This document shows positions 1,571-54,423 of a stretch of DNA of 64,000 nucleotides, one piece after another; the first letter of the stretch is position 1, and each line of letters begins with the position of its first letter. Both the position numbers and the translations under genes were made by a program. Source of the stretch: Spartobacteria bacterium. GTDB taxonomy: Bacteria; Verrucomicrobiota; Verrucomicrobiia; Chthoniobacterales; UBA10450. The notes under the pieces were generated by a model. It made no database searches. It worked only from the letters and a program-made list of their open reading frames with translations, and was not told the DNA's origin. The DNA is taken from the NCBI GenBank assembly GCA_003167555.1, contig PMSN01000003.1, positions 124,001-188,000 of the forward strand, given 5' to 3'.

Positions 1571-4500
1571 CTATCCAGTTTCGCGGCGCGCGTCGAAGAG
1601 TGAGAGCAGCGTCGGCAGGACAATCAGGACGAGCGGCAGACCGAACAGGAGCCCGGAGATGATTGCGATCGCAAGCGGCTGTTGCATCGCCGAGCCTTGA
1701 CCGATTCCCAGCGCGAGCGGCAGCAACGCGAGGATTGCCGCGAAAGTCGTCATGGCGATCGGCCGCATGCGATTGATGCCCGCCACGATGAAGCGATCGT
1801 CGCTGGGCGGCAGGTCGCGATACTCCGAGTAATAAAAAATCGCGATCTCAGTGACGATGCCGATGATCATCGTCATTCCCATGCGCGAAGTGATGTTGAA
1901 CTCAGTCCGCGTCAGCCAGAGACCGAGATAAACTCCCGCGACGGCAAAGAGCGTCGTCAACATCATGGCGATGGCGGCGCGGAATGACTCGTAAAGAATA
2001 AGCAACAAGAGAAACACGAGCACGATGGCGGCGATGAGAATGATCGTGAGTCCGCGAAACGCGATCTGCTGTTGCTCGTAAAGTCCGCCGAGTGTGTAAG
2101 GCACTGCGTTCGGTAAAAGCCCCGGTTGATCGAGAACGCGTTTCACGTCCGCCGCGGTCGATCCAAGATCGCGGCCGCTGATGCGCGCGGTCACGGCGAC
2201 CATCCGCCGCAAATCGTCGCGCGTGATTTCGGGCTGGCCGGTCACAGTGGTGAGCGATGCGACCCGATTCAGCGGGAAGAGATGGCCATCGGGCGCGCGC
2301 AAGAGCAGCCCTTCGATGTTATGCATCGTCTCGCGCGCCGGGTGCGGGATCCAAACCCGCACTCCGACGAGTTTCGGTCCACGCTGGATTTTCGTCGTCA
2401 CGTTACCGCTTAGATAATCGTTGAGTGACTTGGTGACCGCGTCCGGGTCCATACCTTCGAGCCCGGCTTTCACGCGATCAACTTCGATGTTCAAGGCGTC
2501 ACCCGCCGGGACGATGCCGCTCTTGACCTCGACGATACCGCGCACCTTTCGGATCGCCTCCGCGACGCGCGGTGCGATGGCATTGAGCGCCTTCTCGTCA
2601 TCGTTGTAAATCTTCACCTCGATGGGCTGCGGCACACTCGTTAGGTCGCCGATCAAGTCTTCCATCAATTGCAGGAGCTCGACCTGGAGCGCCGGAATGT
2701 GTTGCTCGATGTGGGTGCGGACGTCGTCCATCACTTCTTCGATATCGCGGCGCGGGAACGGCTTCAGGCGCACAAAAAAATCGCCGATGTTCGCTTCGCT
2801 CAATCCGCCGCCAAGTTGGAGGCCGGTGCGGCGCGAATAAGTTTCCACTTCTGGCGTCTCTTGCAGGATCGCTTCGATCTGGCGGAGCAAGCGGTCCGTC
2901 TCCGTAAGCGAAGTTCCCGGTGGCGCGACGTAATCGAGAATGAAACCGCCTTCGTCCATCTTCGGCATGAAGCCGGAAGCGACATTCTTGAACGCGATGA
3001 ACCCGAGCAGGAGCAAGGGCAGAACAAGAAGCAGCAGCCGCGACGGACGTGCCAGTAAAGGCGTCATGATCTTCCGATAGCGCGCGTGGATCCGGGTGGT
3101 GAAACGCCCATGTTCTTCGATGGACGCGTCTTTCGCCGTCAGCAGTCGCGCGGAAAGAATCGGCACGGCCAGCCACGCGATTAAGAACGAGATCACGAGA
3201 CTCGCGGCCATTGTGAGCGAGAGCGCTTTGAAGAACGCGCCGGTCACTCCCGTGAGAAAGGCGAGCGGCGCGAAGATCACGATCGTCGCCGCGGAGGAGC
3301 CGACGAGCGGCTGGGTGAATTCCGTCGCGGCGCGCAAGACCCGGCTGCGCGAGTTCTCCGCATGTTCCGCGCGCACGCGCCGCACGATGTGCTCCACCAT
3401 CACGATCGCGTCGTCGATGATGAGGCCGACAGCCGCGGCCATGCCGCCGAGCGTCATGATGTTGAAGCTCATCTTGAAAACGAAGAGGAGCAGAATGGTC
3501 GCGGCCAGCACGGTGGGAACAGTCAGCGCCGCGATGAGCGTCACCTTCCAGTTCCGCAAGAAGAGAATGAGAATGAGCGAGGCCAACGCAATGCCGATGA
3601 GGACGGCGTCGCGCGTGCTGTGCGCTGAGGCGACGATGAGATCGCTCTGATCGTACCAGTTCGCGATCTTCACGCCTTCGGGAATTTGCTTCGCGATCTG
3701 CGTGAGCTTCGCCTTGATTCCTTCCGCGATCCTGACCGTGTTGCCGCCGGGCTGTTGGTAAACTTGAAAGATCACGGCGTCGCGGCCGTCGGCCGTCACC
3801 CGTGTCCATTGCGGCTCGGTCGAATGCTCGATCGTCGCAACGTCGTCGAGCAACACCACGCCGTCGGGCGTCGACCGCAGCACGGTGTGTTCGATTTCCT
3901 CGAACTTTTTAAAACGCGTGTCCGAAATGACGAGGTAAAGTTTATTGTATTGCTCGAGTTTGCCGACGGCGACGAGCACGTTCGAAGCGGAGAGCGCCGT
4001 CGCCACTTCGTTCAAGGTCATGTGAAACGACTGGAGCTTGTCGGGATCGACCGTGACGCGATATTCCTCGGTGCGCCCGCCTTGGACGCCGACGCGCGCG
4101 ACGCCCTGCACCGTCGAGAGCGCGGGACGCAAGGTGTAGAGCGCGAGATCGCGCAGCTCGACGAGCGATTGCAAATTCGAGGTGAGGCTGTAGGCGATGA
4201 CCGGAAACACCGTCGGGTCCATCCGCTCGACGTTGAAAGTCGTGCCGGTCGGAAGCGTCGGCAGAATCTTGTTCACTTCCGATTGCGCCTGGAGCATCGC
4301 GGAGACCATGTCTTCGCCCCAATCGAAGTTGATGGAGATTTCGGCGCTGCCACGGTTCGTGGCCGAGCGCACGTTGCGCACACCGGGAATCGCGCGCACC
4401 GCTTCCTCGACCGGCGTCGTCACTTCGATCGCCATCCGCTCCGCGGGGCGGTCGCCGGAATCGAGATTGATGCGGACGCGCGGGAAACTCACCTGCGGAA

Positions 4501-8806: not shown

Positions 8807-8840
8807 CCCCCGCCGGAGAAATCCGGCGGGGGTTTTGTTT
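8807..8840 (+). terminator. Rho-independent terminator
   Basis: A perfect 11-bp GC-rich stem (CCCCCGCCGGA at 8807-8817, its complement at 8822-8832) closes a GAAA tetraloop and is followed by TTTTGTTTC. It ends the Cys-rich peptide transcript, and lies just before the convergent TPR gene. Confidence 0.93.
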
Positions 8841-8866
8841 CAGAATCGTTATCGATGCTGACTCTT

Positions 8867-11299
8867 TCATCGTCTGGCGTGGTATGCTTCCTTTCGTTGA
8901 AAGAGCGCAAGGTGTTCCTCAATTTCCTTACGGTACTCGGGGTGTGATTCGATATGGGCGATTGTCATGTTCATGTATTTGATGGCTTGGTCGAAGTCGC
9001 CCACCTCGGCGAAAGCGGCAGCCAAAGTGTCGAGGTACATGGGATCCTTCCATTGTGTTAATTCGCAGGCAGACTTCGCATGCACGACCGCTTCCAGCCC
9101 GTTCCGGTAGGCGGCATCGGGACAGGTGGCGAGAAACCACGCGAAGGCATTCTGCGCAGTGGCGGACCGAGGGAAACGCTCCGCCGTTTCGCGAAATTCC
9201 ATGTGCGCCAGTTTGAAATTGTTCTTTGCGTTGAAGGCGTGGGCGCTGGCAAGAGCGGCTTCGATGTAATTTGGATCTAGCCGATCTGCTTCGCTAAATT
9301 CTGTGGCCGCTTTCTCGTATTCCTGTTTGCCGGTGTAGGCGCGGCCCAGCGCGTAATGCGCGTCGGCGAGCCTTGGATCGAGACGAATCGCGATCGTGGC
9401 AGCCTCGACCGCGGCGTCCCACTGTTTCGTCAGTTGAAGCGAATCGGCGCGAAGCGCGTAAGCCAGCGCATCATTCGGCTTCAATCGAATGATTTCATCA
9501 AAGTCGCGCAGGGCCCGGTCCGTTTTATTCTGGTGCCCGTAAGAGATTCCGCGCTCGGCGAGGGCGAGCGTCGATTGCGGCTCGCGGTGAACCGCCGCGG
9601 TGAAATCCGCGATGGCATGATCCCATTCGCGTTTTTTTTCGTAGGAGAGTCCACGGTAATAGAAGGCATTGCTGAGGGGCTGGCTGGCCGACGCGGCCCA
9701 TGGCACGCGGCTCTTCTCATCATGTGTGCCATCAAAAAAATGAAACAACGCAGCGGTGACCGAGCCGCCCGGATTTGGAGGCAGGACGGCGTTGAAGCAC
9801 TGGATTGCGCGGTCGTAATTCTGTCGAGCGTAGGCCCGGATCCCTTCCTCGATGACATTGCGACTCCCGCCCGAAGCTCCCACATCGCGGACGGCGATGC
9901 GATGTTCGTAGAGCGACAACCGTCGTTCCATGAAGATCCGTTCCTTTGGAGACGCGCCCGGCATCTTCAGCGCGAGTGTTACGTAGCGGACGGCCGCGTC
10001 GAAATCCCCATATTCCGCATAAGCCGCGGCCAGGGCATCGACGCCATACCAGGTGGTCCAATGAGATAAGTCGCAGCCTTTCATGGCTTCCGCGATCGCT
10101 TCCGTGCCGTTGCGATACGCGTCATGCGGACAGGTCGCCCGGAACCACGCGAGGGCCAGATGAGGCGCTTCCGAACGCGGGAAATTGGCGAGAGAGCGCC
10201 TCAACTCTTGCAGAGCGCGCGAATATTCACGGCGGTAGCCATAATTTTCGGCCCGCCGGATCACAGCCCATTGGAAGGAAGAATCGAGCCGAAGAGCTTC
10301 ATTGAATTCTTCGATAGCCCGGTCGAAATCGCCTCGGAAAGTAAACGCTCGGCCGCGCAGAAAGTGAGCGGTGGGAAGTTTCGGATACAGCGCGAGCGCG
10401 GCCGCCGTGTCGCTCAGCACTTTGTCCCAATCTTCCAGCTGAGCTTCCGCCCTGGCGCGGGCCTCATAACCGAGATCGTAATCGGGAGCAATGCGAAGAG
10501 CCTCATTACAATCGGCGATCGCTTCTTCGATGGTGCCCCTGTCCAGATGGATCAGCGCGCGGGCATACCAGAGTTGCCGTGCTTCAGGTCGTTGCCGGAT
10601 CGCCTCGGTCACATCCGCGAGTCCTTTCGGGACATTTCCTTCAAGGCTGTAGGCGGCCGCGCGCTGGATATACGCTCCGGCGTGCACCGGATTGAACTCA
10701 AGGGCTGCGTCAAAATTCGCAATGGCAGGGTCCAGCTCGTTATTGGCGGCGAAGGCCATGCCGCGATCGACAAAAAATTGCGCGTTCGTGGGATCGCAGC
10801 GGATCGCCTCGCTCAGGTCCGCGATGGCTTTCGCCCAATCGCCTCTGCCGGCAAAGATCAGCCCGCGGCTGTGATACGCATCCGGCAGGTTCGGGTCCTT
10901 GAAGATGGCGGTGTCATAATCGCTCATCGCTTTTTCAAATTCTCCTTTGCGATGGTAGGCGAGTCCGCGGTCCAGTACCGCGTAAACGGGTCTCGGATCG
11001 AGCCGGATCGATTCAGAAAAGTCCCGGATCGCTCGATCATCGAGACCTTTGTTGGTGTAGGTCCAGCCACGATTGCCGTAAACAAGAGCGAGGGTCGTTC
11101 GATCCAGCTTTTTGTGCGATGCGGCATCGAACAGCGCGATGGCCGCATCGTAATGGCCGGCGTCAACTTCACTGTACGCTCGCCGGTACAGGTCCATGCC
11201 TTCGGTATAACTGACGAAGTAAGATACGGACGTCAGTAAGGTAGCGATCACCAGGACGCCGCCGACCGCTACGATGTATAACCTGGTTCTAGGAGACAT
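8867..11299 (-). CDS. Large TPR protein with N-terminal membrane anchor
   Basis: This 810-residue protein has one N-terminal membrane helix (residues 8-28) followed by at least 18 tetratricopeptide units (repeats of the A-Y-x-x-R-G/A pattern with D-x-x-Y/F-x-x-A-I at about 34-residue spacing). It is two similar halves: each ends in a cap containing AWFRATCPHDAYRNG (near residue 390) or AWFLATCPDAAYRNG (near 745), followed by DALAAAYAEYGDFD or DTLAAAFAEVGDFD. TPR proteins act as binding scaffolds; the partner here is unknown. It stands alone between convergent and divergent genes. Confidence 0.85.
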   Translation of the reverse strand: MSPRTRLYIVAVGGVLVIATLLTSVSYFVSYTEGMDLYRRAYSEVDAGHYDAAIALFDAASHKKLDRTTLALVYGNRGWTYTNKGLDDRAIRDFSESIRLDPRPVYAVLDRGLAYHRKGEFEKAMSDYDTAIFKDPNLPDAYHSRGLIFAGRGDWAKAIADLSEAIRCDPTNAQFFVDRGMAFAANNELDPAIANFDAALEFNPVHAGAYIQRAAAYSLEGNVPKGLADVTEAIRQRPEARQLWYARALIHLDRGTIEEAIADCNEALRIAPDYDLGYEARARAEAQLEDWDKVLSDTAAALALYPKLPTAHFLRGRAFTFRGDFDRAIEEFNEALRLDSSFQWAVIRRAENYGYRREYSRALQELRRSLANFPRSEAPHLALAWFRATCPHDAYRNGTEAIAEAMKGCDLSHWTTWYGVDALAAAYAEYGDFDAAVRYVTLALKMPGASPKERIFMERRLSLYEHRIAVRDVGASGGSRNVIEEGIRAYARQNYDRAIQCFNAVLPPNPGGSVTAALFHFFDGTHDEKSRVPWAASASQPLSNAFYYRGLSYEKKREWDHAIADFTAAVHREPQSTLALAERGISYGHQNKTDRALRDFDEIIRLKPNDALAYALRADSLQLTKQWDAAVEAATIAIRLDPRLADAHYALGRAYTGKQEYEKAATEFSEADRLDPNYIEAALASAHAFNAKNNFKLAHMEFRETAERFPRSATAQNAFAWFLATCPDAAYRNGLEAVVHAKSACELTQWKDPMYLDTLAAAFAEVGDFDQAIKYMNMTIAHIESHPEYRKEIEEHLALFQRKEAYHARR

Positions 11300-45063: not shown

Positions 45064-46773
45064 TTAGCGGATGAAGTTCAATCCATTGGGAATGTATTGC
45101 GGAAAAACGTAGGCATACAACATCACGATAATCCCGACGATGGCCGCAAGCGCCACGGAGTGCCAGAACAGGAAGCGGAAAATGGAGCCTTCGTTCCCTA
45201 CTTGATTGGTGGCGGCCGTGGCAATGCAAATGGATTGCGCGTCAACCATCTTGCCCATCACGCCCCCGGCGCTATTCGTGGCGCACATGAGGATAGGACT
45301 AAGATGGAGCTGCTGCGCGGTGATTCTTTGCAGATTTCCAAAGAGAGCGTTCGACGAAGTGTCGCTGCCGGTCAGCGCGACGCCGAGCCATCCGATGTAA
45401 GCGCCGAAGAACGGAAAGAGCCAGCCAGTCCGCGTGAAGGCCAGCCCTAACACGGCGTCCATGCCCGAGTAGCGCGTCACGTAACCTATCCCAAGCATGC
45501 AAGTCATCGCGATGATGGCGAATCGCAATCGCACGAGAGTTTTGCCCAAGATGCCGAACATCCGGCTGAAACTGAGCCTGAGAAGAAGTCCGGCAAGGAT
45601 GGCGGCCAGGAAACAGCCAGTGCCCGTAGCAGTCAGCCAGTTGAAATCGAAGCGGGCGGCTTCAGGTGTTGGCTTGGCGACGACAGGGGCCGTGCGCGAA
45701 ACTTTTCCGTGGAGCCCGGGCCAGTCCCAGCCGGCTGGACCGGGGCGCGCCTTGCCATCGGCCATTACTACTTTGAACGAAGGAGTCGTGGCTTGGTTCA
45801 GGGCGTTCTTAATCGAGGGAAGTCCCCAGCACAGAACGAAGATCGACAGGATCAGGAAAGGCATCCACGCCTTTGCGGTTTGTCCGGCGGAGTAACGTTC
45901 GCCGGAGCTTGTCGCGGAGGATTCACTCACGGCGGCCTCGTCGGGGAACCGCCATATTTTTTTCGGTTGCCAGACGCGCAGAAAAAGCATCGTCACGACG
46001 AGCGACACTATTCCCGCGGAAATATCCACGAGGTTACTGTCCATATGATTGGACCAGAACCATTGCGTCGCGGCGAAAGAACCCCCGACGACCAGGATCG
46101 CGGGAAAGACCTGGAGTGTTTCCTTCCAGCTTACCATCGACCGCACGAGCCAGATGGGAACGACCACGGCGGTGATCGGAAGGATGCGCCCAATCATCGC
46201 GTTGAGATCGCTCTCGTTCAGCGCGGTGACAGCCGCCAGGGTGTGCACTGGCGTGCCGATGGCGCCCCAGGCCACCGGCGAAGTGTTGGCAATCAAATTG
46301 AGGGCCGCGGCCTGGAACGGCTTGAAACCAAGTCCGATCATGAATGCGCCGGCGATGGCCACCGGCGCGCCGAACCCGGCGCAACCTTCAATGAACGCGC
46401 CGAAGCAGAACGCCACGAGCAAGAGCTGCAAACGCCGGTCCGGCGTGATGGCCGCGACCGACTGCTTCATGATTTCGAACTGGCCGGTCTCGACCGAAAT
46501 GTCGTAGAGAAACACCGCCGCAATCACGATCCAGACGATTTTGAGCAGACCGAAAGCCGCGCCGTAAAAGAAACTGCTGACTGCGAGAACGGCCGGCATC
46601 TGGAAAACGATGATGGCCACGAGCACGGCGGTCGCCGCCCCCGCGATAGCACAAAGGTGTGGCCGCACCTTCAACCCCGCCAACAGCCCTAAGAGGACAA
46701 CGATCGGCAAGGCGGCCAGCAGCGTCGAAAGCCACCAATGCCCGAGAGGATCATAAACTTGTGTCCAGGTCAC
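45064..46773 (-). CDS. lctP: L-lactate permease (LctP/LldP family)
   Basis: Starts at GTG 46773 with the family N-terminus (MTWTQVYDPLGHWWLSTLLA). The 569-residue protein has about 13 helices, the conserved FCFGAFIEGCAGFGAPVAIA and LNLIANTSPVAWGAIGTPVH motifs, and the C-terminal GVALTGSDTSSNALFGNLQ and CATNSAGGVMGKMVDAQSI motifs of LctP. It takes up lactate or glycolate with protons. No lactate dehydrogenase is adjacent. Hairpin TGCCAG/CTGGCA lies 5' of it near 46815-46833. Confidence 0.93.
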   Translation of the reverse strand: MTWTQVYDPLGHWWLSTLLAALPIVVLLGLLAGLKVRPHLCAIAGAATAVLVAIIVFQMPAVLAVSSFFYGAAFGLLKIVWIVIAAVFLYDISVETGQFEIMKQSVAAITPDRRLQLLLVAFCFGAFIEGCAGFGAPVAIAGAFMIGLGFKPFQAAALNLIANTSPVAWGAIGTPVHTLAAVTALNESDLNAMIGRILPITAVVVPIWLVRSMVSWKETLQVFPAILVVGGSFAATQWFWSNHMDSNLVDISAGIVSLVVTMLFLRVWQPKKIWRFPDEAAVSESSATSSGERYSAGQTAKAWMPFLILSIFVLCWGLPSIKNALNQATTPSFKVVMADGKARPGPAGWDWPGLHGKVSRTAPVVAKPTPEAARFDFNWLTATGTGCFLAAILAGLLLRLSFSRMFGILGKTLVRLRFAIIAMTCMLGIGYVTRYSGMDAVLGLAFTRTGWLFPFFGAYIGWLGVALTGSDTSSNALFGNLQRITAQQLHLSPILMCATNSAGGVMGKMVDAQSICIATAATNQVGNEGSIFRFLFWHSVALAAIVGIIVMLYAYVFPQYIPNGLNFIR

Positions 46774-46837: not shown

Positions 46838-47587
46838 TCATGGCGTTTTAGGTGCCGGGTAAATCGCCTCTTCCGTCCATTTTTTGATTTCAGTTTCGGG
46901 CGGATCAAACTCAGTGTTCGTGACAACAAACTTACCTTCGATTTTGTAAAAGGTCTCTACGACGCTGCTCTTCTTTCCCATAGTGTTGTAGAAAAGCACA
47001 TATACCCTGATACCTATCTTCGCATCGTTAATTTGATTCACGACTGCTTTCGGATCGCCATTTGCCGTCAAAAAACTGGCGCGCAGATTCACTGTTTGAT
47101 GCGGCATCAACGCACGATCATTGGTATCGTCCAGCTCCCGGTCAAACGCGCCTCTGATGTTGGTCAAAAAACACTCGGAATAAATTCGCGGAGTAGCCGA
47201 CTCCGAATGGTTTTGCAGCGAATAACTAACTTCAATCGTATTCTTAAATACTCGGCCCTTGCTGTCGGTAATTCCCAGAACACCATTTACCGGAGGCAAA
47301 TCATTCTCCGCATCGAAACGGTCGCCCGAACGGGAAGTTACTGCACTGATATTAGCGTCTATCCAAGGGGTGTTTGCGGCGTCCACGGTTTTCCGCGTAA
47401 GGGCAAGAGCATCTCTTGTGAGGCTGTTGGAAGCCTCGTATGCCTTTAACTGATAGATCAATACAACGCCTATGCCAATCTGAGAAATCGCTCCTATCGC
47501 CACAACAATATCTAGAATCCAGGTCGCCCAATGCTTCTGCTTTGTGTTATTAGCTTCGTTGTTAATCACGGCACTCGCGTCACTCAT
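46838..47587 (-). CDS. Cassette gene: single-helix membrane protein, unknown function
   Basis: This 249-residue protein has a short polar N-terminus, one membrane helix (WATWILDIVVAIGAISQIGI, about 20-42), a short helical linker and a beta-rich extracytoplasmic-type domain (SYSLQNHSESATPRIYSECF; NLRASFLTANGD; IGIRVYVLFYNTMGKKSSVV). No family is recognised; the layout is common for integron cassette products. GC content is lower than the neighbouring lactate permease. Confidence 0.65.
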   Translation of the reverse strand: MSDASAVINNEANNTKQKHWATWILDIVVAIGAISQIGIGVVLIYQLKAYEASNSLTRDALALTRKTVDAANTPWIDANISAVTSRSGDRFDAENDLPPVNGVLGITDSKGRVFKNTIEVSYSLQNHSESATPRIYSECFLTNIRGAFDRELDDTNDRALMPHQTVNLRASFLTANGDPKAVVNQINDAKIGIRVYVLFYNTMGKKSSVVETFYKIEGKFVVTNTEFDPPETEIKKWTEEAIYPAPKTP

Positions 47588-47671
47588 GTTGTTTCTATGG
47601 AAGGCTGCCGGATTAGGTTTTTACCACGTCGCCGCTGTAGGGACCATCACTGCTGCATCGTCTGGCTAGGT
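47588..47671 (-). other. Degenerate attC-like site (between cassette genes 47666 and 46838)
   Basis: The first core on the minus strand is ACCTAGCC (47665-47671), identical in its centre to the core after the gene at 49068, and it contains the TAG stop of the upstream gene. The second core cannot be identified near the ATG at 47587; AACCTAATC at about 47613-47621 is the nearest resemblance. Probably a decayed site. Confidence 0.4.
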
Positions 47672-48400
47672 GTCCTCATCTTGCGCCTTCTTCGGTGCTT
47701 TCCGCATTCCGTAAAGAGACAGCAACTCCATAGCAAGCTGCGCTCGAAACTTGTCTGTGTCTGGAGACTTCATGGTGTCAAGTATCTGAATGGACATGCC
47801 GACGGCGTTGATCTTCTCCAGCATGGTAACATACGAACGAGCCTGCTCCATTGTGGACCTATAAATCAGTAAGAATGTGGCGGCGATGAACTCGATGAGA
47901 ACACCGGAAACCGTCACAACAATAGACGGCTTGAAGCTTTCTGGTGACTGGTAAACGTGAATGACCCCGTATCCAATAATGACGAAGCCGGCTATCATGA
48001 CTATCAGTGTCAAAACGAAAATCCACTGCACCTGTCTTAGATTGCGATTCAAATAACTCTCAAGCTTGACTCGCGCGAGATCCCAAGCAGCCTGGGGCTC
48101 ATTCGGGTGCTTCCGGGCTCTTTCCTCGACTGCTTCGATTACCTTTTCTCGTGCGGTGCTCGCCAATGCCCGTCGATAAGCCCCAATCCCTAAAATGCAC
48201 ATCGTCCCAACGATTGCCAGTCCAGCTGCCAGCGGTTGCTGCCAACTTTTTTGCAGGCCATAAAACTCGGCAAACGCCGCAAGGCCAATCGCAATAAGGA
48301 TTAATGTGAACCCACCGAAGAAAACAAGCCGGATGCGCCGTCCGCCGGCAAGAACCGCTTTGATGGCGTCTAAAAGAAGCGATGTGATTTCTTCCATCAT
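47666..48400 (-). CDS. Cassette gene: membrane protein with paired helix hairpins
   Basis: This 244-residue protein has two pairs of membrane helices (about 26-45 and 52-72; 127-150 and 160-182) with an amphipathic helix rich in charged residues between them and the phrase LNRNLRQVQWIFVLTLIVMI before the third. After helix four comes STMEQARSYVTMLEKI. The second hairpin with its Q-x-x-F entry resembles two-helix membrane modules of bacterial conflict systems (SLATT or TRADD-N-associated), an impression not a proven match. Its TAG stop lies inside an attC-like core. Confidence 0.65.
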   Translation of the reverse strand: MMEEITSLLLDAIKAVLAGGRRIRLVFFGGFTLILIAIGLAAFAEFYGLQKSWQQPLAAGLAIVGTMCILGIGAYRRALASTAREKVIEAVEERARKHPNEPQAAWDLARVKLESYLNRNLRQVQWIFVLTLIVMIAGFVIIGYGVIHVYQSPESFKPSIVVTVSGVLIEFIAATFLLIYRSTMEQARSYVTMLEKINAVGMSIQILDTMKSPDTDKFRAQLAMELLSLYGMRKAPKKAQDEDT

Positions 48401-48409
48401 GGGGCAGTC

Positions 48410-48459
48410 ATCTAACGAGACACAAGATCAGCGACCGCGCGAGCATCAGTCGGTTGGTA
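48410..48459 (-). other. attC-like site (short, 50 bp)
   Basis: On the plus strand it begins ATCTAACGAGACACAAGATC and ends CGGTTGGTA. CTAAC at the left can pair with GTTGG at the right. The left arm is the same as in the sites at 52652 and 53104. The right core lies in the last codons of the upstream cassette gene, whose stop is within the site. Confidence 0.65.
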
Positions 48460-48850
48460 GCGCATCGATCTTGTCTTGTAGTTTCTTCTTTTCTGCCTCG
48501 AGCGTTTTTTCATTTTCCTCCGCGTCTTTTATGATCTGCATGGCAGCCGCCTTCTGATCGGCTGGCGCGAACATAAGCCCTGCGCCACCTCTACGCTTCT
48601 CCATCTCCATCGTCTCAATCTGCTGATCGACTTCGTGCAGCCTCGCTTCCAGTTCGCCTCTCTTTCTAGTTCGACTCGCCTCGCGTAGGCGGATTTCGTT
48701 CGATGCTGCATCCAACTTCTCCTGAGACTGTTGCAGTTCGGTTTTCTTTGCAGCGAGCGATTGATACTGAATCCAATTGCCGAACAGTGAGACGGCGAGT
48801 CCGGCAATTGCCATTACGGTTTGCCATGAAAACGATTTACTTTCACTCAT
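48446..48850 (-). CDS. Cassette gene: membrane-anchored coiled-coil protein
   Basis: This 134-residue protein has one N-terminal membrane helix (residues 9-27, SWQTVMAIAGLAVSLFGNWI) and then a long heptad-patterned coiled coil from about residue 30 to 128, broken once by RRGGAGLMFAPADQK. No family is recognised. The stop TGA overlaps the attC-like site at 48410-48459. The ATG is 39 bp past the core of the next upstream site. Confidence 0.65.
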   Translation of the reverse strand: MSESKSFSWQTVMAIAGLAVSLFGNWIQYQSLAAKKTELQQSQEKLDAASNEIRLREASRTRKRGELEARLHEVDQQIETMEMEKRRGGAGLMFAPADQKAAAMQIIKDAEENEKTLEAEKKKLQDKIDALPTD

Positions 48851-48889
48851 ATATTGACCTTTGCATTACCTTTGCAAGACGTAGCTCCG

Positions 48890-49073
48890 GCCTAACGAGA
48901 ATGAGACCAGCGACGGATGGCGGGCTGCGCGGAATGCTTCGCGTAGCGATGCGGGCGTGGGTGGCGCATCGTTGCGGATTGGGAGTGGAATTTCATAGAA
49001 AGCGAAGAAGCAAGGCTGCCAGCCAGCCTGCTCGCGAATGCTTTCGTAAGTTCACTGCATCGCATGGCTAGGT
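48890..49073 (-). other. attC-like site (long, 184 bp)
   Basis: The left core is GCCTAAC (48890-48896) with the arm CTAACGAGAATGAGACCAGC; the right core is GCTAGGT (49067-49073), a T-to-C variant of GTTRRRY. The interior holds GTTGCGGATTGGGAGTGGAA then TTTCATAGAA, closely matching the interior of the site at 52652-52743. It is long for an attC and may be a fusion of two. Confidence 0.6.
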
Positions 49074-49508
49074 TTTTCGTCGGAGTTCTTCAAGTTCGTG
49101 TCGAGCCGCATCGATGAAGGATTGATACGGAGGTGCCGCTTTCGACTCATCTTCCTCCTTCGGTTCCTTTGCGTGAGCATCCGCAACATCCTTTGCGAGT
49201 TTTTCGGCAGCCTTGATGACGCCTGGACTCGCGACAAGACGAACGCGCGCTAACAGCGAGAAATGCACTGAGAACCCTGCGACATCGGCGGCCTTCTGGT
49301 CGATCGCTGAAAGTAGAAGCCTGCCTGACTCTGCTAAGAATTCGCCGTAGAGCTGCTCTCGTGATGCGGCTAGCCTCTCTGTTTGTTCTAACTCCCACTT
49401 GTGTCGATTAAGATTCTTGTTGGTAAGGTAAGAAATCAAACCGCCCATCAGTGTGCCCACCACTGCAGAAACCGCAGCGAGGAGAGCGATCTGGAGTTGA
49501 GGAGACAT
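49068..49508 (-). CDS. Cassette gene (first of array 2): membrane-anchored helical protein
   Basis: This 146-residue protein has an N-terminal membrane helix (IALLAAVSAVVGTLMGGLIS, residues 7-27), then a charged helical domain (RHKWELEQTERLAASREQLY; LLSAIDQKAADVAG; AAEKLAKDVADAHA). No family is named, though small anchored helical proteins of this type are frequent in cassette arrays. It is read from the promoter module at 49519-49625: the ATG is about 90 bp downstream of the -10 box. The TAG stop is within the following core (ACCTAGCC). Confidence 0.68.
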   Translation of the reverse strand: MSPQLQIALLAAVSAVVGTLMGGLISYLTNKNLNRHKWELEQTERLAASREQLYGEFLAESGRLLLSAIDQKAADVAGFSVHFSLLARVRLVASPGVIKAAEKLAKDVADAHAKEPKEEDESKAAPPYQSFIDAARHELEELRRKT

Positions 49509-49828
49509 GTGGCTTAAGGCCTAGCGAGAATTAAACGGAAAAGTTTCGTCTAACTCGGAATTGGGGTAGGGCGGAATGGGAGGGTGCATCCGTCGCAGGA
49601 TAGCGGATCGGGGCGCGGCCGGCAATGCGGAAATGGGGGGATGGAGGACCCGCCTACGCCAAGGCTACGGCGTGGCAGGCCCGACTACTCCGAGGCTACG
49701 GCGTGGCAGGCGGAGGTCAGAGGTCGGAAAGATCGCAGCCAGATGTTGAACGACGAAATTCGCTAGCGCGACAGCGGATTTGCATTGAGCGAATTGGGAA
49801 CTTTTGTTCCGGTGGACCGCAGGCCTGA
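49509..49828. other. Intergenic region between array 2 and the DUF6883 gene
   Basis: Besides the promoter module, this holds a short sequence also found beside copy 2 (GGAGGACCCGCCTACGCC, 49643-49660, then AGGCTACGGCGTGGCAGGC, given twice here at about 49662-49680 and 49693-49711) and a GGTCAGAGGTCGG repeat at 49714-49726. No gene and no integrase are found. Confidence 0.6.
49519..49625 (-). promoter_or_regulatory. Pc/attI-like promoter module, copy 1
   Basis: On the minus strand: -35 TTGCCG (49620-49625), 17-bp spacer, -10 TATCCT (49597-49602), then a leader with an imperfect hairpin and a core-like CGCTAGGC (49519-49525) just before the first cassette. Positions 49525-49625 match 54141-54241 at 94 of 101 bases. 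It would drive the cassettes at 49508 and below. The core has C in place of the first T of GTT. Confidence 0.7.
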
Positions 49829-50170
49829 ATGAAATTGCCCAATGCCGAAGCAGCGGTGGTCGAGCGCGCAAAGATCGAGGGGTATTTGCTCAACGTGGCA
49901 CATCGCTTCGGCGCGAGTAAGGCACGCTTCTTCACGCATTTTGGCTTTCGCCGGGAGGCATGGGAGCAATTGGCGCAGGCTTTGCTCGAACACGGGCAGA
50001 AGCATGAACTGAAGAGAACGCGCAAGACGGGTTTCGGTCCGCGCTATGAGGTGGAAGGAAAACTCAATTGTCCGAATGGCCGCCGCCCGCTGGTGCGCAG
50101 TGTGTGGCAGATGGATGACGGCGAGATTGCGCCTCGTCTGATTACCGCATACCCTTTGGAGGACGAATGA
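49829..50170 (+). CDS. DUF6883 protein
   Basis: This 113-residue protein matches DUF6883: it opens LPNAEAAVVERAKIEGYLLN, has GASKARFFTHFGF and closes with VRSVWQMDDGEIAPRLITAY. The domain also occurs in predicted toxins. It is transcribed away from array 2 and overlaps the DUF4926 gene by 4 bp (ATGA), a pairing that recurs in many bacteria and resembles a toxin-antitoxin or effector-immunity pair (inference). Confidence 0.82.
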   Translation: MKLPNAEAAVVERAKIEGYLLNVAHRFGASKARFFTHFGFRREAWEQLAQALLEHGQKHELKRTRKTGFGPRYEVEGKLNCPNGRRPLVRSVWQMDDGEIAPRLITAYPLEDE

Positions 50171-50400
50171 AGATCAAAGAACATGATTGCGTGGTCCTGA
50201 CGGCCGATTTACCCGACGAAAAACTCAAGTCGGGTGATGTCGGCACCGTCGTCCACGTCCACAAAGGCGGAGCGGCCTATGAAGTGGAATTCATGACCCT
50301 GGATGGTCACACCGTGGCGGTGGCAACCGTCGCGAACAATCAGCTTCGTCCTGTCTCGCGCCGAGACATCTCGCATGTGCGCGAGTTGCAGGCGGTCTAG
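50167..50400 (+). CDS. DUF4926 protein
   Basis: This 77-residue protein is a small SH3-like beta barrel: IKEHDCVVLTADLPDEKLKS, GDVGTVVHVHKGGAAYEVEF, VATVANNQLRPVS. DUF4926 proteins are usually the second gene behind DUF6883 or similar partners. Translation is coupled to the upstream gene. The cassette region has no others on this strand. Confidence 0.85.
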   Translation: MKIKEHDCVVLTADLPDEKLKSGDVGTVVHVHKGGAAYEVEFMTLDGHTVAVATVANNQLRPVSRRDISHVRELQAV

Positions 50401-50555
50401 GCAAGCACAGAAGTCAGAGGACAGAGGACAGAGGAAGCACAGCTTCCAAGACAATGGCATTCCCAAGTGCAACTTGGGAACGAGGCGGGGCGCGCGGAGG
50501 CCAGGGGAAGGGAAAGTGGAAAGTCGGGGAGGTCAGAGATCCTTCGTCCGCATCA
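50401..50555. repeat. Repeat-rich spacer with AACTTGGGAA hairpin
   Basis: Contains GTCAGAGGACAGAGGACAGAGG (50412-50433) and a perfect 9-bp hairpin TTCCCAAGT-GCA-ACTTGGGAA (50460-50480). No gene. It separates the convergent DUF4926 and symporter genes. Confidence 0.7.
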
Positions 50556-50581
50556 CGGATCACACAAGATCAGCAGATCCG
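50556..50581 (-). other. attC remnant at the symporter stop
   Basis: CACAAGATCAGC (50563-50574) is identical to the inner arm of the sites at 48410, 52652 and 53104, but both cores are gone. It is enclosed by CGGATC/GATCCG, which may act as a hairpin. The last codons and stop of the symporter gene are read from it. Confidence 0.5.
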
Positions 50582-51828
50582 AGCGGAGCCGGGTCGACGC
50601 GGTCATCACAGCTTCGCGCGACGAGCGCGGCTGCAACAAGATGGCCAGTTGTGTTCAGCACCGTGGCGAAGACATCGGGGAGCGCGTCGACTGCGATCAG
50701 GATCCCGATTCCCTGGGTCGGCAGACCGATGGCAAGAAAGAGTGGTGTCAGCATGATGAACGCGCCGCGCGGAATGCCCGGCACGGCGAACGCAAGGAAC
50801 ACTGCAGCGAAAGCGATCGTCGCTACGCTGTCGGCGTGGAGCGGCACGCCGTAGAACCAGCCGACAAAGAGCGCGCCGATCGTCCATGACACCGGCGCTG
50901 CAATCTTGAACGTGGAGACGGCAAGAGGCAGGACAAATCCGGTGACCCGCTCGGGCAATTGCAAGTTCTTCTCGGCCGTCTCGACGAGCGCCGGCAGCGA
51001 CGCGATCGACGAGCTCGAGCTGAAGGCAATGAGCTGCGGCGGCAAGGCGGCACGCGCGAAGCGGCGCAGCGGGATCCGGCCTGCGATTGCCACAACGGGG
51101 TAGAGCAGCAGCGTTACGGCGATGCTCGCGGCCGAGTAGGCAGCGACATAAAAGCCGATCGCGCCCGCCAGCGTGGCGCCGGCATGGACGGCCAGTGGAA
51201 GGACGAGCGCGAATACGCCGAGCGGCGCAGCGAGGATGATCCAGCGGACGAGGATGAGCATCGCGTCGCTCAGAGCGCGGAAGAAGCGCGTCAGCGTCTG
51301 ACGCGATGCCTCGGGGGACCGCGCAATTGCCAGCGCGAGGAGCAGCGTGAAAAGGATCAGTGGCATCATCGCCCCACTCGCGGCGGCGGCGATCGGGTTC
51401 GCCGGGAGGAGCGAGACAAGCCACGCCGAGAACGTCTGCGCCTGTCCTTCCGTAGAGATTTGATTCGCCGCTTCGACCGCGCCGGCTGGGAGTTCCAGGG
51501 CACTGTGAGGCGGAAGGAGCGCGAACATCGCCAGCGCGACCGGAATGGCGATGGTCGCGACTCCAATGAGAAGCAGCACAAAAGTAGCGAGCGTCCGTCC
51601 GCCGAGCCGGCCGATCGACTTGATGTCCGACACCGATGCGACTCCGGTGATCAGCAGCGAAACGACGAGAGGGATTACTGTCATGCGAATGCCGTTGATC
51701 CAGAGCGTGCCGATCGGCGCGATCGCGTCGGCGGCGCGGATTAGTGAGGCGTTATGCGATGCCGCGATGAGGACGCCGAGGAGGATCGCGGCGACGAGAG
51801 CGAGAAGGAGGCGCGTGCTCTCTTTCAT
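50560..51828 (-). CDS. Dicarboxylate/amino acid:cation symporter (SDF family)
   Basis: A start at 51828 (MKESTRLLLALVAAILLGVL) shares its A with the SDR stop (TGATG). The 422-residue protein has SDF-family features: GTLWINGIRMTVIPLVVSLL, the Ser-rich re-entrant loop IAFSSSSSIASLPALVETAE, VLPLAVSTFKIAAPVSWTIG and ALPDVFATVLNTTGHLVAAAL (substrate-binding region). Family members import C4-dicarboxylates, glutamate or related anions with Na+ or H+. It is co-translated with the SDR enzyme, suggesting transport and oxidation of one substrate. Confidence 0.88.
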   Translation of the reverse strand: MKESTRLLLALVAAILLGVLIAASHNASLIRAADAIAPIGTLWINGIRMTVIPLVVSLLITGVASVSDIKSIGRLGGRTLATFVLLLIGVATIAIPVALAMFALLPPHSALELPAGAVEAANQISTEGQAQTFSAWLVSLLPANPIAAAASGAMMPLILFTLLLALAIARSPEASRQTLTRFFRALSDAMLILVRWIILAAPLGVFALVLPLAVHAGATLAGAIGFYVAAYSAASIAVTLLLYPVVAIAGRIPLRRFARAALPPQLIAFSSSSSIASLPALVETAEKNLQLPERVTGFVLPLAVSTFKIAAPVSWTIGALFVGWFYGVPLHADSVATIAFAAVFLAFAVPGIPRGAFIMLTPLFLAIGLPTQGIGILIAVDALPDVFATVLNTTGHLVAAALVARSCDDRVDPAPLGSADLV

Positions 51829-52610
51829 CACATCATCAAGTCGCCACCGTTGATATCGAATGATGCGCCGGTGATGTAGCCGGCGGCCTCCGAGGCAGCG
51901 AAGCAAATCAAGTCGGCGACTTCGCGTGCGGTGCCGATGCGCGGGATCGGGTAACTTGCTGCGAGGCGTTGCAGCGTTTCGTCGTTGGCGTGCTCGCGCG
52001 TCAGCTCCGTGTCAATCATCCCGGGGCAGACGGCGTTCACGGTAATCCCGAACTTGCCGAGTTCCTTCGCTGCGGCGCGCGTGAGTCCGAGCAGGCCCGC
52101 CTTTGATGCGGTGTAGTGCGCGCCGCCCAGGGTGCTGACCATTCGGCCGGCGGACGAGGAGATATTAATAATGCGGCCGTAGCGCTGCGCCTGCATCGCC
52201 GGAAGTGCCGCCTTCGTGAGCAGGAATGGCGCGGTGAGATTGACCTCAAGTGCGGTGCGCCATTCCTCCGCAGTCAGATCAGGAAACCGCGTGGAGCGCG
52301 CGAGCGCGGCGTTGTTAACGATAACGTCGACGCGGCCAAAGCGCTCAAGTGTCATTCGCACGATCTCCTCCGCCGCACCGGGCGCGGCGATGTCACCCGG
52401 TACAGCTAGCGTGCGTTCGCCGATCGACGCGGCGAGACTTTCGGCACGTGCGCGGTCACGCACATTCACTGCCACCGCAGCGCCGCGTTCGTGGAAACGC
52501 TCCGCCGCGGCCCGCCCGAGACCGCGCCAGGCGCCGGTGACGATGACAACGCGCCCGGCAAAGTCCTGCGCTGAACGCTGCCCGCTCATCTCAATATCAG
52601 AGCTTCCCAT
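51828..52610 (-). CDS. Short-chain dehydrogenase/reductase (FabG-like)
   Basis: An ATG at 52610 is chosen; 52589 is another option, while the frame to 52667 begins inside the attC-like site. The 260-residue SDR has the NAD(P) motif VTGAWRGLGRAAAERF (TGxxxGxG), IVNNAALARS (NNA), catalytic Ser in IINISSSAGRM, YTASKAGLLGLTR (YxxxK) and PG in VCPGMIDTELT. Substrate unknown; the joined symporter suggests a hydroxy-acid or sugar acid. The pair lies in a cassette bounded by 52652-52743 upstream and the remnant at 50556-50581 downstream. Confidence 0.9.
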   Translation of the reverse strand: MGSSDIEMSGQRSAQDFAGRVVIVTGAWRGLGRAAAERFHERGAAVAVNVRDRARAESLAASIGERTLAVPGDIAAPGAAEEIVRMTLERFGRVDVIVNNAALARSTRFPDLTAEEWRTALEVNLTAPFLLTKAALPAMQAQRYGRIINISSSAGRMVSTLGGAHYTASKAGLLGLTRAAAKELGKFGITVNAVCPGMIDTELTREHANDETLQRLAASYPIPRIGTAREVADLICFAASEAAGYITGASFDINGGDLMM

Positions 52611-52651
52611 TTGCTCCAACGCAACTAGCTTTTCACGACCGATGGAGATGG

Positions 52652-52743
52652 GCCTAACGAGACACAAGATCAGCGACTGCTGGCGAGGGCGCGTGTCGCT
52701 GCGGATTGAGTGTGAAACTTCATGGAATGTCGCCTGGTTAGAC
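52652..52743 (-). other. attC-like site (92 bp)
   Basis: The plus strand begins GCCTAACGAGACACAAGATC and ends GCCTGGTTAGAC. CTAAC pairs with GTTAG, and CAGCGAC pairs with GTCGCTG inside; GCGAC can also pair with GTCGC next to the right core. Length and cores fit an attC. It follows the stop of the lipoprotein cassette gene (52766) by 23 bp. Confidence 0.78.
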
Positions 52744-52765
52744 TATTGGTGATCTAAACCTTCAT

Positions 52766-53101
52766 TTATCGAGCCGGCATCGGAGGATTGAAGCGTTGGT
52801 CGGCGGGGTACGGAGGCATTCCCGATATAACCTTTACGTGCCGCGGAACCGGAAGATTCACCCGCTCGCGGTCGAATGGGTATGCCAGCTTCAGTCTGAC
52901 GTCGTACCGGCCGGTGAACTTTGAATCGATCAATGCCCATGTCCAATAGGTTGTCCCTGGAACCTGATGCAGCTCGTAATCCGCAATACCGTCACGGTTG
53001 CGATCGTAGTAGGTGACGACACTGCGATCCTCCGGCGAACCGGGAGCGATGGTGCAGCTCGCGAGAAACGCAACAAGCGAAGCGATAATTTGGAAGCGCA
53101 T
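52766..53101 (-). CDS. Cassette gene: small lipoprotein, unknown function
   Basis: A start at 53101 (MRFQIIASLVAFLASCTIAP) gives a signal peptide with lipobox LASC; the frame to 53119 begins in the attC-like site and is rejected. The 111-residue product then has RSVVTYYDRNRDGIADYELH, an EF-like acidic loop (DRNRDGIADYE), and TYWTWALIDSKFTGRYDVRL. No family is recognised. One gene in its cassette, no ribosome-binding site evident. Confidence 0.7.
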   Translation of the reverse strand: MRFQIIASLVAFLASCTIAPGSPEDRSVVTYYDRNRDGIADYELHQVPGTTYWTWALIDSKFTGRYDVRLKLAYPFDRERVNLPVPRHVKVISGMPPYPADQRFNPPMPAR

Positions 53102-53103
53102 AG

Positions 53104-53179
53104 GTCTAAGGAGACACAAGATCAGCGACCGCGTCCGACGGTGCGCGCGGCTGCAAGCTGGACGAACTCTTGGTTAGAT
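53104..53179 (-). other. attC-like site (76 bp, one core mutated)
   Basis: The plus strand begins GTCTAAGGAGACACAAGATC and ends CTTGGTTAGAT. The left core has AAG where AAC is expected, while the remaining arm is identical to that of 52652. An inner hairpin CGTCC/GGACG is present. The mutated triplet may make it inactive. Confidence 0.7.
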
Positions 53180-53181
53180 GT

Positions 53182-53634
53182 CTATTCGAGTTTCAGTGAC
53201 TGCATCATCTGCTCCATGTACTGGGCGCGAGACGACTCCTGCCGCTCCACTTCTCCAGGGGTGTTGGTGGAAATGCCGGTATCGAAATAAATGTGCCGTT
53301 TGCCGCGCGGTGTCCTAACCATCCAGTAGCTACACCACTGCCCTGCGTGCTCAAGCGTGGCGTGCTGCCAAGGCGTAGGAGCGTGGACAGCCTTCTTCGT
53401 TGCCTTCGCTCTGCGGACGGCGTCAACCATAACATCGCGTGTGGCGAGCAGAGGAGTGTAATGGAACACCTTCATCATCCACGCCATCTCCTCTTCGATT
53501 GCTTTCGGTCCGCGCTGCTTTAGAGGTATGGCTCTTTCCTTGGTCGATCCGTCTTGGACGGTCGACTTTTCCGCGTGACAGGGTGCCACGGTCAGGAGGG
53601 CGGCGACAGCGAGGATGGCAGCGCGTGCTAGCAT
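53182..53634 (-). CDS. Cassette gene: secreted hypothetical protein
   Basis: This 150-residue protein has a signal peptide (MLARAAILAVAALLTVAPCHA, cleavage after CHA) and an alpha/beta domain with IEEEMAWMMKVFHYTPLLAT, HATLEHAGQWCSYWMVRTPR and GKRHIYFDTGISTNTP. No family is recognised. Its ATG is part of the core box GTTAGATG at 53633-53639, so the cassette starts at its own start codon. The stop lies 2 bp before the next attC-like site. Confidence 0.72.
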   Translation of the reverse strand: MLARAAILAVAALLTVAPCHAEKSTVQDGSTKERAIPLKQRGPKAIEEEMAWMMKVFHYTPLLATRDVMVDAVRRAKATKKAVHAPTPWQHATLEHAGQWCSYWMVRTPRGKRHIYFDTGISTNTPGEVERQESSRAQYMEQMMQSLKLE

Positions 53635-53756
53635 CTAACGAGAATAAGATCAGCGACGCCTGCCAAGGGCGAGCTTCGATCGGATATTGAATGGTTTAGT
53701 CATGGGAATTCCCAGGCGAACGACGGGTAGACGTTCGCTGCATCGGCTGGTTAGAT
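53633..53756 (-). other. attC-like site (124 bp, best formed)
   Basis: The plus strand begins ATCTAACGAGAATAAGATCA and ends CGGCTGGTTAGAT. CTAAC pairs with GTTAG; after an 8-nt and a 5-nt spacer, GATCAGCGACG pairs with CGT(t)CGCTG(c)ATC, leaving two unpaired bases on one side. Such extrahelical bases, an R stem, an L stem and unequal spacers are the defining structure of folded attC sites. Confidence 0.82.
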
Positions 53757-54136
53757 GCGTTCCGGAACGCATCGACTGCCTGCTCACACCTCGGACAATA
53801 AGTGATCGAGGTAGGCGCCGCAAAGGGGCCGCGCCGCTGCAATGAGTAATGCGGTTGAACACAGTTGGGGTTGCATGCGAACACCGTTCCTTCGTACTGC
53901 CGAAATGCTTCTCTTGTCATTTCATTGCGCTGGAAACCATCCACATGCGCAAATCGCGGTTCAGTGAAACCCGTGACGGTGAGAAGCGGGATGCGGTGGT
54001 GCGTGCAAAACAGCTGTTCCCCAGTCTCTGGCATGATGTAGCGCGTATTCTGTAGATATTGGCTGCACGACATACAGCCGCTCATGAAAAGCACGGTTCC
54101 TGTGCTGGAAATAATGAGGCCGAGAAGCTTTAGCAT
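53696..54136 (-). CDS. Cassette gene (first of array 1): Cys-rich lipoprotein-like protein
   Basis: The ATG is in GTTAGATG at 54135-54141, directly after the promoter module. The 146-residue product has a hydrophobic N-terminus (LLGLIISSTGTVLFMSGCMS) that may be a lipoprotein signal, then CMSCSQYLQNTRYIMPET, FCTHHRIPL, FACNPNCVQPHY and TYCPRCEQAVDAFRN, so paired Cys and His suggest a small metal-binding domain. The frame runs about 60 bp into the attC-like site; its last 18 to 20 residues (NQPMQRTSTRRSPGNSHD) are translated recombination-site sequence. Confidence 0.72.
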   Translation of the reverse strand: MLKLLGLIISSTGTVLFMSGCMSCSQYLQNTRYIMPETGEQLFCTHHRIPLLTVTGFTEPRFAHVDGFQRNEMTREAFRQYEGTVFACNPNCVQPHYSLQRRGPFAAPTSITYCPRCEQAVDAFRNASNQPMQRTSTRRSPGNSHD

Positions 54137-54241
54137 CTAACGAGAATTAGACGAAAAAGTTTCGTCTAACTCGGAATTGGGGTAAGACGGAATGGGAGGG
54201 TGCATCCTTCGAAGTATAGCGGATCGGGGCGCGGCCGGCAA
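54135..54241 (-). promoter_or_regulatory. Pc/attI-like promoter module, copy 2
   Basis: On the minus strand: -35 TTGCCG (54236-54241), 17-bp spacer, -10 TATACT (54213-54218), a leader with a perfect 10-bp hairpin TTAGACGAAA-CTT-TTTCGTCTAA (54147-54169) and CGTTAGATG (54134-54142) at the first cassette. The region from 54141 to 54241 matches copy 1 at 94 of 101 bases. -10 is closer to consensus than in copy 1, so array 1 may be the better expressed. Confidence 0.75.
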
Positions 54242-54423
54242 CGGGAAACGGAGGACCCGCCTACGCCGAGGCTACGGCGTGGCAGGCAGAGGGCGGAGGG
54301 CAGGTTTCTTTCGTCCCTGCCGGGACTCTTTGGAAGATCACGAACCGTTATCCCCAGCGCTGAAGCGCTGGGCTATTGTCGGGGAGCGCGCCGACCTCCG
54401 ACTTCCGACCTCTGACTTCCGAA
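54242..54423. repeat. Spacer between array 1 and the polyphosphate operon
   Basis: Holds CGGAGGACCCGCCTACGCC then GAGGCTACGGCGTGGCAGGC, also present beside copy 1 of the promoter module, and CCGACCTCCGACTTCCGACC-type short repeats at 54389-54420. No integrase or other gene is seen. Confidence 0.6.

Follow-up and report, generated by a model that had tools for sequence, protein, structure and literature searches.

The window (the whole stretch of 64,000 nucleotides that was analysed, positions 124001–188000 of contig C26) belongs to the 4.2 Mb genome, assembled in 29 contigs, of a soil bacterium of the Chthoniobacterales (Verrucomicrobiota) related to Ca. Udaeobacter. From position 54136 down to 46838 it contains minus-strand genes interspersed with sites that have a common arm, which an earlier note on this DNA had read as one run of integron-like cassettes. 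The genes do form cassettes, but they are divided over two arrays, each with a near-identical leader. Array A runs leftward from 54177 (cassettes A1, A2 and A3, then the two-gene cassette A4), and array B runs leftward from 49561 (B1, B2, B3 and B4, then a lactate permease gene at the left end). The gap between them is occupied by two plus-strand non-cassette genes, encoding DUF6883 and DUF4926 proteins. Since both arrays consist of cassettes and attC sites without an adjacent integron integrase gene (intI), they are by definition clusters of attC sites lacking an integrase (CALINs), the class that had rightly been proposed for them. Most of the genes fall outside known families, as had also been claimed, but the short-chain dehydrogenase/reductase (SDR) and dicarboxylate symporter genes of A4 do not. 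Screening the cassette genes with PADLOC and Pfam revealed no defence role or other clear function for most of them.

The attC sites were examined with a covariance model trained on 12 sites, every one of them outside the window (from the arrays behind both intI genes on C18 and C14, from arrays on C4, C22 and C23, and from arrays of two congeneric species), and not with IntegronFinder's own model. Aligned together with two more sites, they displayed the standard fold (paired R''/R', unpaired spacers and paired L''/L'), in which L'' carries one extra base and 12 of the 24 pairs show compensating changes. In the window, the model recovered five sites (three in array A and two in array B; E-values in Table 1), all on the minus strand within the 46838–54241 stretch, and the site at 53633–53756 matched the fold along its entire length. 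The only other window match up to E=10 was an attI-like site at 54135 (11 bits). Based on these scores, there is no doubt about one site, another is strong, and the remaining three are shortened forms with an arm nearly identical to that of full sites; degenerate or truncated sites lie at 53104, 52652, 48410 and near 47600–47680. The window sites thus score far above background with a model trained elsewhere, and both the shared arms with GTTRRRY cores and the start codons inside these cores (an ATG overlaps the core, GTTAGATG, at 53639 and 54141) are present as earlier described. The genome as a whole carries 26 attC sites at E<=0.01, spread over many contigs, and all eight genomes of the genus that were compared carry between 13 and 125. 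No matching family was found in Rfam.

Each array starts with a leader that ends in a hairpin followed by TTCTCGTTAG, and the leaders of A (54137–54248) and B (49521–49632) are 90% identical across 112 nt. Because the model of this attI-type site (R3) includes both window sites in its training set, their own R3 scores prove nothing. R3 matched 14 sites in this genome and 5–21 per genome of the genus. At a dozen separate places, other genera included, R3 sites are linked to intI at a fixed spacing, either ~30 bp behind the gene (G005:C24, G002:C43, G002:C54, G020:C8, G134:C99, G185:C63 and others) or ~108 bp ahead of its start (G001:C151, G002:C10, G017:C2, G151:C81 and, in another family, G061:C27). 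Moreover, an attC site followed 150–1600 bp downstream on the same strand in 50 of the 69 attI-type sites with room for one, compared to none on the opposite strand and one upstream. The hairpin arms covary (87.8% of cells paired; both-side changes in 59 cells versus 15 in shuffles), in a count that is biased toward structure because the sites were collected with a model containing that structure. By its likeness to the sites beside intI, the hairpin-type site looks like the attI of this lineage. It might be argued that off-target IntI activity put cassettes at chance genomic sites (attG-like insertion), from which arrays then grew. The scatter of the arrays across the genome would agree with this, and off-target IntI action in other bacteria is described in PMC10127599, with attG discussed in PMC12444791. 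We nevertheless consider it improbable, as the array heads carry a conserved 43-nt attI-type site that is common to dozens of arrays and to intI-linked integrons.

The absence of an integrase, as claimed in the earlier note, holds for the entire window contig, where no match to TIGR02249, and hence no integron integrase, was found. It does not hold for the genome. Instead of lying next to the arrays as in a complete integron, two full-length intI genes scoring above the curated cut-off reside on contigs C18 and C14, each divergent from a short array. The C18 IntI aligns along its length, over 311 residues, with VchIntIA, the Vibrio cholerae integron integrase (2a3v; E=1e-94), with its active-site motifs intact, and the nearest named IntI proteins stem from Ca. 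Udaeobacter and other Chthoniobacterales. Separately, contig C4 (L012) carries a broken intI at 1267–1839 whose 3' part is interrupted by a reading frame resembling a GIY-YIG nuclease (the nuclease label being read from sequence), and an attI-type site and cassettes lie downstream in the same direction.

When a circular cassette is joined at G|TT, the bases following the upstream G are expected to complement the cassette's own R'' and not that of its neighbour. In 97 cassettes outside the window, the own ends matched at 3.90 of 5 nt versus 2.23 with the neighbour, while the best of 2000 shuffles reached 2.58. Junctions thus lie at G|TT, and the two cassette ends stem from one circular cassette. 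Within the window this signature is clear in A1, whose 5' boundary (GTTAGATGC) is complementary to its own R'' across 9 nt; A2 and A3 show little beyond the core, and B2 is too decayed. In B1, the R'' sequence ACCTAGC is complementary to the variant core GCTAGGC at the 5' end of B1 itself. An ordinary gene cluster with repetitive extragenic palindrome (REP)-like intergenic repeats and no recombination system, for which dispersed genomic repeats (CCTACGCCGAGGCTACGGCGTGGCAGGC) adjoining the leaders could be invoked, has a practically negligible chance of being correct: it is refuted by the attC fold, the cassette-end signature, the orientation rule of attC relative to attI-type sites, the presence of intI in the genome, and the cassette replacement described below.

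Comparison with related genomes, as had been proposed earlier, revealed whole-cassette differences. In G007:C23, from a sister species, array B again lies between the permease gene, which is 92.7% identical in DNA, and the leader (90%) with the DUF6883/DUF4926 region (93.7%), and neither array contains intI. The interior, however, is unrelated, with four genes in the window versus three cassettes in G007, and B4 is absent from this orthologous array. Because the flanks in G007 are equally devoid of intI while the cassettes are wholly different, the content of array B changed after the shared platform lacked intI. Core genes such as that for glucokinase (80%) are less similar between the two genomes than the array B flanks, which makes an exchange of the island between the species probable, with its cassettes replaced afterwards. 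Differences also exist at the glucokinase locus (54424, right of array A), where G003, G005, G006 and G007 have 0.8–2.4 kb or unrelated DNA and no array. In G004 this place is occupied by a different array, which comprises at least five cassettes and has an attI-type site and a 23-residue relic of intI at its head. Furthermore, the SDR/symporter block of A4 recurs behind an attC site in G007:C52 (93.8% nucleotide identity), and in G180:C121, from another genus (85.9%), it immediately follows an attI-type site. This block therefore stands at three different intI-less platforms, with homology starting at or near the GTTAG core, which points to cassettes being mobile between arrays. A relative of A3 (55% identity) sits right behind an orphan attI-type site in G007:C40.

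These exchanges bear on the possibility that the arrays are dead remnants, i.e. two former complete integrons from which intI was deleted and whose cassettes are frozen and decaying, with nothing acting in trans. The mostly shortened attC sites in the window, the GCTAG core and mismatched hairpin of array B, the intI sequence (in some cases only fragments) upstream of 11 of the 71 sister attI-type sites, the intI relic in the G004 array and an apparent intI tail relic in G180:C121 would all fit such an origin. We deem it unlikely, albeit a serious contender, given that array B has wholly different cassettes in G007 between the same intI-less flanks and that A1 has an intact attC site and matching ends.

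Our preferred explanation, to which we assign a probability of roughly 0.8, is that these are two integron arrays without an intI of their own, headed by attI-type sites, which either lost their intI or never had one nearby and which were last served in trans. An IntI encoded elsewhere, now or recently, would join circular cassettes to the attI-type sites in trans and excise them again, with G|TT in attC as the point at which cassettes become linked to the head and to each other. A putative promoter in the leader (TTGCCG-N17-TATACT in A) would then read the first cassettes. A corresponding box is found on contig C21 and, as TTGCCG/TATCCT, at array B, and a promoter search across all attI-type sites yielded only a small excess over shuffled sequence (4.83 versus 4.64). 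The local intI might have been lost, leaving relics at some sister sites, or the platform might have moved without it. Across the 71 attI-type sites, those 11 are the only ones with intI sequence within 1.1 kb upstream, which is near full length in only three or four; ~85% have none. Because upstream DNA is present, most of these sites are orphans and not an artefact of contig ends. Some orphan platforms are integrons that lost their intI, as relics remain. Others may have been copied or have travelled with neighbouring DNA, as the near-identical short leaders at A, B, C21 and G007:C23 suggest.

Several points weigh against the preferred explanation. Of the five attC sites in the window, three are weak or shortened, and the attI-type core and hairpin of array B have changed, because of which the arrays may be dying; array B in particular looks worn. 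The replacement in array B could also have proceeded by homologous recombination between its conserved flanks. In addition, the attI-type site is a category defined in this analysis, with putative IntI binding, and recombination at the window sites is deduced from sequence comparison. Finally, G006 and G007 have no detectable integron integrase at 95–97% completeness, despite 33 and 38 attC sites and 9 and 21 attI-type sites, respectively. For G007 this means that its exchange is older or that the gene is missing from the assembly. A broader version of service in trans, in which one or two IntI act throughout the family as a distributed integron on at least a dozen scattered attI platforms of the hairpin type, all with a leader and a short array of their own, is tentative, and we rate its chances slightly below even.

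The standard description of integrons is a single integrase with a single attI and a single array, and clusters without an integrase generally pass for wreckage. The integrase-less arrays examined here retain an identifiable attI-type site, and in at least one of them all cassettes differ between species although no integrase is encoded locally. If platforms are served in trans, attI sites could multiply independently of intI, and cassettes near a promoter would no longer be limited to one per genome; in a distributed integron, many cassettes would be first in line for expression at once. The sites also provide a model of an attI beyond the well-studied mobile integrons, and CALIN activity becomes directly testable in a soil bacterial group.

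CALINs are a known kind of element, recognised by IntegronFinder (PMC9024848), and in Xanthomonas they are spread over several loci and can reportedly be mobilised in trans, with intI elsewhere in the genome (PMC12444791). The window arrays resemble these in having at least two attC sites with cassettes, no adjacent intI and an intI elsewhere, but differ in that each starts at an attI-type site with a promoter-like leader and that there are many orphan platforms per genome. With sedentary chromosomal integrons they have in common the lineage-specific, similar attC sites of ~123 nt, the mostly unknown small genes and an intI in the genome, whereas the usual plan of one intI, one attI and one long array is replaced by short arrays over many platforms. 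One Shewanella prophage provides a precedent for a CALIN with an attI at its head (PMC9892861), likewise in an intI-bearing genome. That case concerns one second copy in one prophage, compared to 5–21 sites per genome across the genus studied here and more in related genera. An intI reading toward attI, known from Treponema (PMC3607928), is mirrored by the several intI genes of this family with an attI-type site ~30 bp behind them, although the window arrays have no intI and other intI genes of the genus follow the classical divergent layout. Otherwise, attI sites are poorly described and go undetected by standard software (PMC9024848). In the open-access literature on orphan or multiple attI sites and on Udaeobacter integrons, we found only the Shewanella prophage case. 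Neither the presence of about a dozen orphan attI-type platforms in one genome nor a hairpin-type attI of conserved form and spacing across a family was found described there, which, given the restriction to open-access sources, is weak evidence. Many orphan attI platforms per genome thus appear to be unreported before.

Table 1. Features of arrays A and B and their flanks (window coordinates).
Feature	Position	Strand	Remarks
Putative cassette promoter Pc, array A	54213..54241	-	-35 TTGCCG (54241-54236), N17, -10 TATACT (54218-54213); consensus match only
attI-type site, array A	54135..54177	-	hairpin GTTAGACGAAAC..TTTCGTCTAA, then TTCTCG|TTAG; R3 65.5 bits (in training set)
Cassette A1 gene	53696..54136	-	146 aa; N-terminus signal peptide/lipoprotein-like; no confident family
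attC of A1	53633..53756	-	full length, 124 nt; 83.5 bits, E=1.5e-21
Cassette A2 gene	53182..53634	-	150 aa; secreted-like; no family
attC of A2	53104..53179	-	shortened, 76 nt; core CTTAG; 15.7 bits, E=0.03
Cassette A3 gene	52766..53101	-	111 aa; lipoprotein-like
attC of A3	52652..52743	-	92 nt; 19.8 bits, E=0.002
Two-gene cassette A4	50560..52655	-	SDR oxidoreductase 51828-52589; SDF dicarboxylate symporter 50560-51828 (PF00375)
Possible relic of attC arm closing A4	50555..50580	-	CACAAGATCAGC; read by eye, no covariance-model match
Right flank of array B, non-cassette	49829..50400	+	DUF6883 and DUF4926 genes; 93.7% nt identity in G007:C23
Leader of array B	49562..49640	-	promoter-like TTGCCG-N17-TATCCT; 90% identical to leader A and to G007:C23:2805-2924
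attI-type site, array B	49519..49561	-	hairpin mismatched, core GCTAG; R3 56.9 bits (in training set)
Cassette B1 gene	49068..49508	-	146 aa; membrane-anchored; no family
attC of B1	48890..49073	-	long form, 184 nt; 37.3 bits, E=2e-8
Cassette B2 gene	48446..48850	-	134 aa; membrane anchor and coiled coil
Truncated attC of B2	48410..48459	-	50 nt; 13.6 bits, E=0.13; same arm as in full sites
Cassette B3 gene	47666..48400	-	244 aa; several transmembrane segments; PF20712 (TRADD-N associated 2-transmembrane domain), E=4e-21
Degenerate attC-like stretch between B3 and B4	47600..47680	-	only GCTAGG-type end recognisable; not scored by model
Cassette B4 gene or array tail	46838..47587	-	249 aa; no family
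Left flank of array B, non-cassette	45064..46773	-	L-lactate permease-like transporter; 92.7% nt identity in G007:C23

With regard to individual features of Table 1, the PF20712 domain of the B3 protein is a transmembrane domain found in association with cyanobacterial TRADD-N proteins, and no close relative of B3 was found among the 82 other family genomes. The permease-like gene on the left flank of array B also adjoins cassette-like DNA in G003 and G005.

Directly upstream of both leaders (49636–49711 and 54243–54287) lies a REP-like repeat, GGACCCGCCTACGCCGAGGCTACGGCGTGGCAGGC, which is also present in G007:C23. On that same contig (L293), a lone attC site at 3046–3139 is located just upstream of the array B attI-type leader and is absent from this place in the window. 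The motif CCTAGGCTCAACTTTGTAGTG ends or begins four contigs (C18, C14, C4 and C21) inside arrays and also occurs on C23 (L066) at 9651–9672. Its interpretation as an insertion sequence end was dropped; on C23 it constitutes the 5' end of an attC-like site, and it may represent a repeated variant of attC at which the assembly breaks. Finally, contig C6 (L067) carries, at 8830–10110, three copies of a ~130-nt repeat (GACATATATCAATCGTCATTTTGTCG..) between short genes, some of them right after a GTTAGG core, which is possibly another cassette-associated element.

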